From Yoonia sp. (GTDB taxonomy: Bacteria; Pseudomonadota; Alphaproteobacteria; Rhodobacterales; Rhodobacteraceae): 64,000 nt of DNA. Positions 48,237-51,350 of this stretch are shown here, piece by piece. The stretch lies in contig JAQXEG010000009.1 of NCBI GenBank assembly GCA_029250945.1, positions 203,211 to 267,210 of the forward strand, read 5' to 3'. How positions within the stretch are numbered: the stretch's first letter is position 1; every line of letters starts with the position of its first letter. The position numbers were made by a program, and so were the translations under genes. The notes below the pieces were generated by a model. That model saw nothing but the letters and a program-made list of their open reading frames with translations. It had not been told where the DNA came from and made no database searches.

Positions 48237-49049
48237 CTATCCGTTACAACTGTTAAGAAGCTGATCCATCGTCAGTGATGGCTGGGAACAGCCCGCCTCT
48301 CCGACGATCTTGGCGGGAACACCGGCCACGGTTTTCATTGGCGGCACGGCCTCTAGCACGACGGAGCCTGCTGCGATGCGGCTGCAATGGCCGATAGTGA
48401 TATTGCCCAGCACCTTTGCCCCGGCCCCGATCAGAACGCCATTTTCAATCTTGGGGTGGCGATCGTCATCCTCCTTGCCCGTCCCGCCCAAGGTCACGGA
48501 ATGCAGCATCGACACATTATCACCAACGACAGCCGTTTCGCCAATCACGATGGAATGGGCGTGGTCAATCATCACACCACGTCCCAAACGGGCGCCCGGG
48601 TGGATATCAACGCCGAAAACTTCGCTCACACGCATCTGAATGAAATAGGCGAGATCACGGTAGTCATTCGCCCAAAGCCAATGCCCCAAACGATAGGATT
48701 GGATGGCCTGAAACCCCTTGAAGAACAACAACGGCTGCAAAAGCCGGTGACACGCTGGGTCGCGGTCAAGAATGGCAACCATATCCGCTCGGGTTGCAGC
48801 CGCGAGGTCAGGATCAGCCGCAATCGCCTCATTCGCGAGTTCCCGCAAGATTTGTTCGGACATCTCGGATGACGCCAGTTTCATCGCAATGCGGTGCGCT
48901 AGCGCGGATTCGAGCGTATCATGATGCAAAATACCGCTATGGATCAAGCCACCTATCAGCGGCTCGGCTACGATGGCAGCGCGCGCTTCTTGCTGAATGC
49001 GGGTCCATACCGGATCAAGTTCGGTCACATTAGATGGTGATACGGCCAT
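48237..49049 (-). CDS. cysE: Serine O-acetyltransferase
   Basis: SEVFGVDIHPGARLGRGVMIDHAHSIVIGETAVVGDNVSMLHSVTLGGTGK hexapeptide repeats. Confidence 0.94.
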   Translation of the reverse strand: MAVSPSNVTELDPVWTRIQQEARAAIVAEPLIGGLIHSGILHHDTLESALAHRIAMKLASSEMSEQILRELANEAIAADPDLAAATRADMVAILDRDPACHRLLQPLLFFKGFQAIQSYRLGHWLWANDYRDLAYFIQMRVSEVFGVDIHPGARLGRGVMIDHAHSIVIGETAVVGDNVSMLHSVTLGGTGKEDDDRHPKIENGVLIGAGAKVLGNITIGHCSRIAAGSVVLEAVPPMKTVAGVPAKIVGEAGCSQPSLTMDQLLNSCNG

Positions 49050-49189
49050 GGTGCTATCCTTCGCTATTCGCCCTAGTCGTATAACAGTTAGGTGGAGAGC
49101 ACCAAGAAAAAACCCGTGATCATATTAATCACGGATTTTGTTTTTCATCAGGGTATTCATCGCAATCGCGAGGCAGGCCAGATAATCGC

Positions 49190-49789
49190 CGCTCACCCGT
49201 GCGGGATGTTTGGAGCGCGGATCCAATTGACCGTCATGCCTGATGGATCAGGCGCCGCGTTCAGATGCACCACCGGATAGGGTCAGTATCCGTTCCCAGC
49301 AAAGCTACGCTGCGTGTATTTATAACTGGCTGATCGAACCGCCTGCTTGGCTGGTCCATAGCGATAATGCCGTTCCAACCCGCGCGAGGCGGAGGGGATC
49401 GTAATCTGTTCAGGGTGGCCATCAAGCACAACAACAATCGACCCAGCGGGCCAAACCCGAGGCATCATCGCGCTTGTGCCAAGCTGACCACGCAGCAGGT
49501 TCCGGATTTCATATTGGCAATTACCAATCGGATCGGCATCCGCAAATTGCACGATTTCCCAATTGTCGGATACGCCATCACCAATCGCAACCGTGTTCCC
49601 CCCAGCAAAAACCACATCAGCCCCAAGCGACGCCAGCATCCCACTAATCAGCGTCACAGACACACCTGCCTGCCTGTCCCAAGTGCCAAGCGGCCCTGTG
49701 GCAGGCGGCGATTGCAAACGTCCGATATCAACGCGGATTTCGTCATAGTCGACGCCCCCGCTGGGGTCAGTGTCTTTGAATTTTTTCAT
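49190..49789 (-). pseudogene. Remnant of gene transfer agent baseplate/host-specificity (gp15-like) protein
   Basis: DPSGGVDYDEIRVDIGRLQSPPATGPLGTWDRQAGVSVTLISGMLASLGADVVFAGGNTVAIGDGVSDNWEIVQFADADPIGNCQYEIRNLLRGQLGTSAMMPRVWPAGSIVVVLDG.. resembles the C-terminal part of GTA gp15-type proteins; in-frame TGA at 49283 followed by PYPVVHLNAAPDPSGMTVNWIRAP. Confidence 0.65.
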
Positions 49790-50006
49790 GAAATGCCTCT
49801 TGCGCCTTAATGACGCTCAAATGGGCGGTCTGAAGTTCCATCAATTTGGAAACGACAGCTTTTGGTGTCTGGCTATCGACGCTGCCGATATCTGCCATCA
49901 ACCTGTTCAGAACGTCGGAAATGCTCTGGAATTCTTCTTCGATCATCGCAATGCGGGCCAAGGCGGCTTGCACATCCAATGCCGGATGATCTTGCGATTT
50001 TTTCAT
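49767..50006 (-). CDS. Small coiled-coil protein, possibly a GTA 5'-end gene or its truncated remnant
   Basis: MKKSQDHPALDVQAALARIAMIEEEFQSISDVLNRLMADIGSVDSQTPKAVVSKLMELQTAHLSVIKAQEAFHEKIQRH. Confidence 0.5.
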   Translation of the reverse strand: MKKSQDHPALDVQAALARIAMIEEEFQSISDVLNRLMADIGSVDSQTPKAVVSKLMELQTAHLSVIKAQEAFHEKIQRH

Positions 50007-50099
50007 TGTGTAAATTTGCCTGTACGGAACTTCCGATACAAACAAGGGGCAGATGATCACAGCGGCCTGTGAATTTTTTTGCCCTCTAGCATGGAACAA

Positions 50100-50128
50100 T
50101 TGATATCCCACGGCATTATCTAAGTCAA
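50100..50128 (-). promoter_or_regulatory. Putative sigma70 promoter for the GTA-remnant locus
   Basis: Minus strand TTGACT-17 nt-TATCAA. Confidence 0.4.
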
Positions 50129-50186: not shown

Positions 50187-51350
50187 TTAGCCGTCGTCAT
50201 TGTTAGCGCGCTCTGCCTCGATGGCACGCCACGCCTGAACGTTGCGGTTATGCTCGGCCAATGTCACCGCGAATGCGTGACCGCCGGTGCCATCCGCCAC
50301 AAAGAAGATATATTCAGACCTGTCAGGATCCAAAACAGCCTCAATCGCGGCACGCCCCGGATTGGCAATAGGTGTCGGTGGCAGGGCTGGGATCACATAA
50401 GTGTTCCAAGGCGTGTCCGCACGCAGCTCGCTCCGGCGCAGACCACGGCCCAAGATACCCTCACCTTTTGTGATACCATAAATGACCGATGGATCCGTCT
50501 GGAGCTTCATTCCAAGGTTCAATCGGTTCACAAAAACCGATGCCACCTGACGCCGCTCAGCCGCAAGGCCTGTTTCCTTTTCCACGATACTGGCCAGAAC
50601 CAAAGCCTCTTGGGGCGACGATAGCGGCAGATCATCCGCGCGTGCGGCCCACGCATCCGCAATGATCCGCTCCTGTTCGGCGGTCATACGGTCGATAATG
50701 GACGACACAGGTGTGCCGGGCTGAAAATCATAGCTGTCTGGTGCAAGCGACCCTTCGGCTGGCACCGCATCTACGTCCGCTTCCAGCAAATCCAATCCGC
50801 GCAATGCGTTCAGAACCTGCCAGCTTGTTACACCCTCGGCCATGGCCACACGGTAACGGGTATCGGCAGCCTCTTTCACGGCCTCATACACCTCCGGCGC
50901 GGCATCCTCGGCTGGGTTGAATGCAGCGACCTCAACAAAGCGGTTCGTTGCAGGGTCCAATTCACGCACCTGAATTTGCGTGCGGGTCACGCCCACGCGG
51001 TACACCACCTCGGTCCCGCAAGTATTCTGACCACCACGGGTCACGATATCGACGATCTCTTCCATCGACGCCGCCTCGGGCACCAGAAAATTACCGGCTT
51101 TCAGCTGCGATGTCTTTTCGGAATAATCAGCACCGATCCGCATCACAGACGCCGATTGGATCGCGCCCTCATCCAGCAGGTTTTGCGACACACGACGCAT
51201 CGTCGACCCGCGATCAACCTGCAAACAAATGGCCTGCGCCAGTGGTCCCGGTTGCGAATATTGCGTCGCACCATAACTGATGACACCCGCCACCAAGAAG
51301 AGCGCAACGACAAAGAATGTCAGTGCGTTAGACGCGATATGTCGCCACAT
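50187..51350 (-). CDS. mltG: Endolytic murein transglycosylase MltG
   Basis: ASIVEKETGLAAERRQVASVFVNRLNLGMKLQTDPSVIYGITKG; TPWNTYVIPALPPTPIANPGRAAIEAVLDP. Confidence 0.94.
   Translation of the reverse strand: MWRHIASNALTFFVVALFLVAGVISYGATQYSQPGPLAQAICLQVDRGSTMRRVSQNLLDEGAIQSASVMRIGADYSEKTSQLKAGNFLVPEAASMEEIVDIVTRGGQNTCGTEVVYRVGVTRTQIQVRELDPATNRFVEVAAFNPAEDAAPEVYEAVKEAADTRYRVAMAEGVTSWQVLNALRGLDLLEADVDAVPAEGSLAPDSYDFQPGTPVSSIIDRMTAEQERIIADAWAARADDLPLSSPQEALVLASIVEKETGLAAERRQVASVFVNRLNLGMKLQTDPSVIYGITKGEGILGRGLRRSELRADTPWNTYVIPALPPTPIANPGRAAIEAVLDPDRSEYIFFVADGTGGHAFAVTLAEHNRNVQAWRAIEAERANNDDG

Follow-up and report, generated by a model that had tools for sequence, protein, structure and literature searches.

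A relic of an RcGTA-type gene transfer agent cluster between mltG and cysE in a Yoonia genome, and repeated reduction of such clusters in its relatives

Introduction

Production of gene transfer agents (GTAs) kills the producing cell, and why production persists is an open question. RcGTA-like clusters are found in 86% of Rhodobacterales OTUs (PMC6821227). Their recurrent pseudogenisation and loss in the Alphaproteobacteria have been described, with possible cheater lineages proposed (PMC10883770). The window considered here, a 64,000-nt stretch of a Yoonia sp. genome, has two short ORFs between mltG and cysE, where by synteny the GTA cluster is located in relatives. The question is whether these are the remains of such a cluster and, if so, how it was lost.

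Results and Discussion

Layout of the locus

The gene order on the minus strand is fabF, mltG, a small ORF of 79 aa (50006–49767), an ORF of 168 aa (49789–49283), and cysE (49049–48237). Intact or near-intact clusters occupy the same place in four relatives (G036, G014, G013, and G022). The mapped features, all on the minus strand, are:

50187..51350 (−): mltG, an ORF and host gene forming the upstream flank; its orthologue lies beside g1 in relatives
50100..50128 (−): putative promoter, TTGACT-N17-TATCAA, inside a stretch upstream of g1 conserved among relatives
50021..50040 (−): inverted repeat TGTATCGGAAGTTCCGTACA, just upstream of g1 and largely conserved in Yoonia relatives
49767..50006 (−): 5′ part of g1 (GTA small terminase), with the frame lost at a run of A; homologs are at the g1 position in relatives
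49781..49786 (−): A6 run, one A more than in G026, the g1 frameshift; possibly a sequencing error
49720..49780 (−): 3′ continuation of g1 (KFKDTDPSGGVDYDEIRVDIG), which now opens the 168-aa ORF; 72% identity to G026 g1
49720..49726 (−): junction of a ~12.8-kb deletion, at ATCGGAC common to g1 and g15, in frame; from comparison with G036 g1 and g15
49283..49720 (−): C-terminal fragment of g15 (megatron), about residues 1048–1195 of gp15, ending at TGA 49283–49285 (CGA, Arg, in G036)
49222..49282 (−): remainder of g15 past the nonsense codon (PYPVVHL...NWIRA)
49211..49222 (−): second deletion junction, from g15 to the 3′ end of g16, with ~0.45 kb missing relative to G036
49125..49211 (−): remnant, the 3′ end of a small gene overlapping g15 (g16/rcc01699 position), weakly similar as judged by eye
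48237..49049 (−): cysE, the downstream flank, intact

Identity of the two ORFs

The 168-aa ORF had been thought to resemble the C-terminal part of gp15, and database searches bear this out. Residues ~20–168 match the gp15/megatron C-terminal domain in Pfam (PF23666, 9.5e-27), and the ORF also matches the PHROG 4271 tail protein (9e-30), positions 1049–1197 of the RcGTA structure chain 6tba_8A in the PDB (1.2e-36), and positions 1046–1192 of NCBIfam GTA_megatron (1.4e-36). In most relatives this domain closes an open frame of ~1300 aa.

The preliminary description treated the small ORF as an unrelated coiled-coil neighbour. No family model in Pfam, PHROG, PDB, or NCBIfam calls it g1, and its matches there are chance-level coiled-coil ones; the assignment rests on its homologs (best 7e-13 and 1e-12), which in congeners lie ~13 kb upstream of the gp15 C-terminus, at the g1 site. 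This synteny rules out an independent gene. Since the small ORF is g1 by position and the 168-aa ORF is the gp15 C-terminus, the window retains both ends of the cluster.

A promoter-like pattern (TTGACT-N17-TATCAA) is present at 50128–50100 (−), as first reported, but it does not belong to a new arrangement: the block upstream of g1 in which it lies is kept in relatives. Together with the inverted repeat, it is best read, from the sequence, as the old GTA control region, ancestral and not new. The inverted repeat might be an operator or the leader of the GTA operon.

The deletion scar and further damage

In G026 the end of g1 reads ...AFYEKYKDTTPQGGVNYDEIRDDIGRHLDRI...; in the window, ...AFHEK in the small ORF is followed by KFKDTDPSGGVDYDEIRVDIGR in the next ORF, one frame off. 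The shift is due to an extra A in GAAAAAATTC (49786–49781), and the frameshifted 3′ part of g1 supplies the 168-aa ORF with its first ~22 residues. After ...GATATCGGACG the sequence turns into g15. The corresponding sequences of the sister G036 are ...GACATCGGGCGC... in g1 and ...GTCATCGGACAG... in g15, which places the junction within ATCGG[A/G]C at 49726–49720, in frame, with ATCGG[A/G]C of g1 joined to ATCGGAC of g15. By coordinate comparison, ~12.8 kb is missing relative to G036. The junction had been placed at ~49765–49790, ~60 nt short of the true site; that stretch is g1 sequence with the +1 frameshift.

The in-frame TGA at 49283, also reported earlier, stands where a conserved Arg is encoded, by CGA in G036; the four intact relatives that were read have NGYRPYP or NGLRPYP at this site. 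It is a nonsense mutation, and g15 reads on for ~20 codons past it. By eye, a second junction lies at ~49222–49211; beyond it comes the 3′ end of the small gene at the g16/rcc01699 position, which overlaps g15 at its terminus. If the extra A in g1 is a sequencing error, as it may be, a g1::g15 fusion of ~240 aa would be open up to the nonsense codon.

In the g15 fragment, 15 nonsynonymous and 16 synonymous changes fall on the branch of the window genome (G000), against 5 and 20 for G036 (p 0.048); other comparisons gave p 0.06–0.08. This raised rate of amino-acid change fits decay, if weakly. With just one stop in the ~170 codons of the fragment and a weak relaxation signal, either a recent loss or a slight constraint on the fragment is possible.

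The rest of the cluster and the reading of the locus

GTA_TIM, capsid, and portal are all missing from the 2.53-Mb genome, a 48-contig assembly of 95% completeness in which absence is not absolute, in agreement with the earlier statement that the rest of the cluster is gone. Homology, synteny, and whole-genome searches uphold the proposal that the GTA cluster was lost through an internal deletion between mltG and cysE. The locus is very probably a dead RcGTA-type head-tail cluster, with g1 joined in frame to late g15 by one ~12.8-kb deletion and then further broken. A single deletion at the short repeat ATCGG[A/G]C, presumably mediated by microhomology, would have removed the TerL, portal, protease, capsid, and tail genes; the +1 A in g1, the nonsense change in g15, and the second deletion into g16 would have added damage, probably later. 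By descent the locus belongs with the RcGTA-type head-tail clusters, in its gp15 homology, in g1 at its 5′ end, and in its mltG/cysE position, and it lacks the portal, capsid, and TIM-barrel gp15 of a working GTA. The cell would be predicted to make GTA particles no longer, but might still act as a recipient: cysE is intact, and cysE1 of R. capsulatus is needed for good receipt of GTA DNA. A GTA “cheater” would receive GTA DNA without producing particles; with its production genes lost and cysE intact, the genome is at most a candidate.

Alternatively, the remnant could be a retained small gene, in which the g1::g15 fusion (~240 aa if A6 is really A5) or the 168-aa ORF yields a useful protein. 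In favour are the in-frame deletion, the conservation upstream of g1, and the long in-frame g15 fusions, at low dN/dS, of other reduced loci in the family. However, the frame as sequenced is broken at A6 and then stopped by the TGA within g15, and both g15 and g16 have lost an end; in addition, the G000 branch has an excess of amino-acid changes, and the same short form occurs in none of the 57 congeners. Together these make this reading very improbable. Even less probable is that an intact cluster was misassembled or misbinned: the assembly is a draft, and the contigs of several relatives end inside or beside the GTA cluster (G010, G023, G074), but here the locus is internal to a 267-kb contig with its flanks in order, such an error would not account for the nonsense codon or the second deletion, and capsid and portal are nowhere in the genome. 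A phage origin for the gp15 piece, by chance insertion beside cysE, is hardly credible, despite second, weaker gp15-like matches elsewhere in a few congeners (G035, G080) that may be prophages, because it is nearest to the gp15 of a sister species (65% to G036) and, at the GTA site, is continuous with g1 of that cluster.

Reduced loci across the genus

The dead cluster of the window is not alone. Among 57 sampled Yoonia/Loktanella-like genomes, 53 match the 168-aa ORF and 43 have capsid, although some of those without it are merely broken contigs (G074); at least eight loci, window included, are reduced. The relic was initially regarded as a rare fossil. Independent reductions in several congeners, and earlier descriptions of recurrent pseudogenisation and loss (PMC10883770), do not support rarity; the relic is of a known kind, a lost GTA. 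In a cysE+pdhC+pdhB tree the eight reduced genomes need eight changes, at least seven of them forced by well-supported branches. G000 is placed outside G026 and the intact G036 (support 99–100), and because G036, the sister of G026, is intact, the losses in the window and in G026 are separate events unless the cluster was regained in G036. The losses are on tips and no more clustered than shuffled labels. Breakpoints differ from that of the window in G026, G073, G003, G028, G021, and G006; in G028, G070, G021, and G003, ~1–165 of g2 is joined to g15 at ~642–652. Two further genomes, G010 and G023, were not counted as losses, since their contigs end beside mltG (in G010 also beside cysE), though gp15, capsid, and portal were not seen in them.

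Some of these loci have further peculiarities. In G026 (L039 5090–8260), g1 is open, g2 frameshifted or broken, g3 1–201 joined to g15 1200, and g16 frameshifted. G073 (L058 11954–14497) has codons 1–101 of g1 fused in frame to g15 from codon 560, giving an 834-aa open frame. An IS3-like transposase is found in G006 (end of L048, and L049:1–700) at the contig edge where g3–g15 should continue; judged from the contig ends, this cluster was probably cut by an insertion sequence. The g2::g15 fusion of G021 (L044, L063) is further broken, and a contig stretch upstream of its cysE carries IS3-like transposase ends and ABC/polysaccharide-export-like genes.

A recurrent g2::g15 fusion

In G028, G070, and G021 the junction is at the same codon pair (...LRGPQFDAxWxDE|xGCxA[IV]DKG...), with codons 1–166 of g2 (TerL) in frame with g15 (megatron) from codon ~643. 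Of 397 genomes, 15 match a 95-residue junction probe over its full length; nearly all of these belong to different Rhodobacteraceae genera, and the portal gene is found in none of the 15. The fused frames are mostly 827–904 aa, with shorter ones in G135 (418), G395 (710), and G220 (609, at a contig edge), and their Pfam domains are Terminase_6N (first half), GTA_TIM (last third), Phage-tail_3, and Rcc01698_C. Among named loci with a readable g2 site, 7 of 61 have the fusion: Sulfitobacter sediminilitoris, an uncultured Sulfitobacter, Pseudosulfitobacter koreensis, Marivita geojedonensis, Roseovarius halotolerans, R. pacificus, and a Yoonia MAG (G021). Fusion loci include L057:7879–10371, L061:2463–4961 (−), L212–L226, L095:11673–14147, L127:12447–14903, and L133:11675–14200, among others. 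In a class-wide sample the fusion occurs only in Rhodobacteraceae, with the proviso that the greater divergence of GTA genes elsewhere may put them out of the probe's reach. IMG/VR scans for both junctions gave no match, nor does LRGPQFDxxWxDE|xGCxA match in G000, where the junction is between g1 and g15.

Two Roseovarius loci are also worth recording. In R. pacificus (L138, 11143–19227), ~8 kb of other sequence lies between mltG and the fused GTA gene. In R. litorisediminis (L233, L250), g2 and a full-length g15 frame are only ~4 kb apart, as against ~11 kb, probably yet another internal GTA deletion.

Where close intact relatives were compared (Yoonia G075 for G028; also Marivita), the DNA flanking the junction is, on both sides, closest to the local intact g2 and g15, and in Yoonia trees the fused alleles group with intact sister species. 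A single ancestral fusion, inherited or spread within Yoonia, is not supported on either count; family-wide, independence is established for a few of the 15 genomes, those where close intact relatives were compared. In G003 the codon after the break appears, by eye, to be from the local g15, which would put the break exactly between two codons; the frame is later lost by one nucleotide. Nor is DNA homology supported as the cause of the recurrent junction: in nearly every intact genome, hundreds to >1 million pairs of sequence windows are equally or more similar. Exact 11–16-nt repeats elsewhere are unused.

Fused alleles have dN/dS of 0.05–0.29 in the pairs computed. Branch tests, which mix time before and after the deletion, mostly show no relaxation, with nominal exceptions (p < 0.05, uncorrected) in some comparisons of G070, M. 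geojedonensis, and S. sediminilitoris. An AlphaFold2 model of one fused protein is of low confidence (mean pLDDT 41, 5 sequences) and uninformative. An Rfam search returned nothing.

Overall, one and the same in-frame deletion of ~11 kb seems to have arisen on several occasions, with no evident homology behind it. Selection for the fused product, a site-specific process, or an allele of great age whose flanks have been homogenised may each account for this. A broader proposal, tentative and on present evidence rather unlikely, is that GTA loss in the Rhodobacteraceae is not merely random decay but includes a repeated, codon-exact, in-frame 11.1-kb deletion joining the TerL N-terminal part to the second half of the megatron, by way of a selected fusion protein or a site-specific process, with the window as a later or parallel end product of a tendency to lose the middle and keep the ends. 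The codon-exact fusion across genera is the part likely to surprise specialists; if selection or a specific mechanism is behind it, it would be a new fate for a domesticated virus. Independently of this, losses resolved to the nucleotide beside intact sister clusters make the loss rate, the persistence of non-producers, and the cheater idea testable.

Comparison with known systems

The RcGTA head-tail cluster of Rhodobacter capsulatus comprises g1–g15, with g16 (rcc01699) and cysE1 (rcc01700) downstream (PMC9552610). The window shares with it both ends (g1, the g15 C-terminal domain, and the tail of g16) and has mltG and cysE flanks ordered as in relatives, but it is without g2–g14 and most of g15, and the remaining frames are broken. 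As in the pseudogenised or lost RcGTA-like clusters already described (PMC10883770; PMC6821227), production genes have been lost while relatives keep them; what differs here is that the scar is mapped at nucleotide resolution and set beside the independent scars of sister species. The g2::g15 loci (S. sediminilitoris, M. geojedonensis, R. halotolerans, Yoonia spp.) are alike in having an internal deletion that puts 5′ genes in frame with the C-terminal part of g15, and in keeping cysE. In these, however, codon 166 of g2 meets codon ~643 of g15 in a mostly open frame of ~830 aa, whereas in the window g1 meets g15 at ~1048 and the frame is dead.
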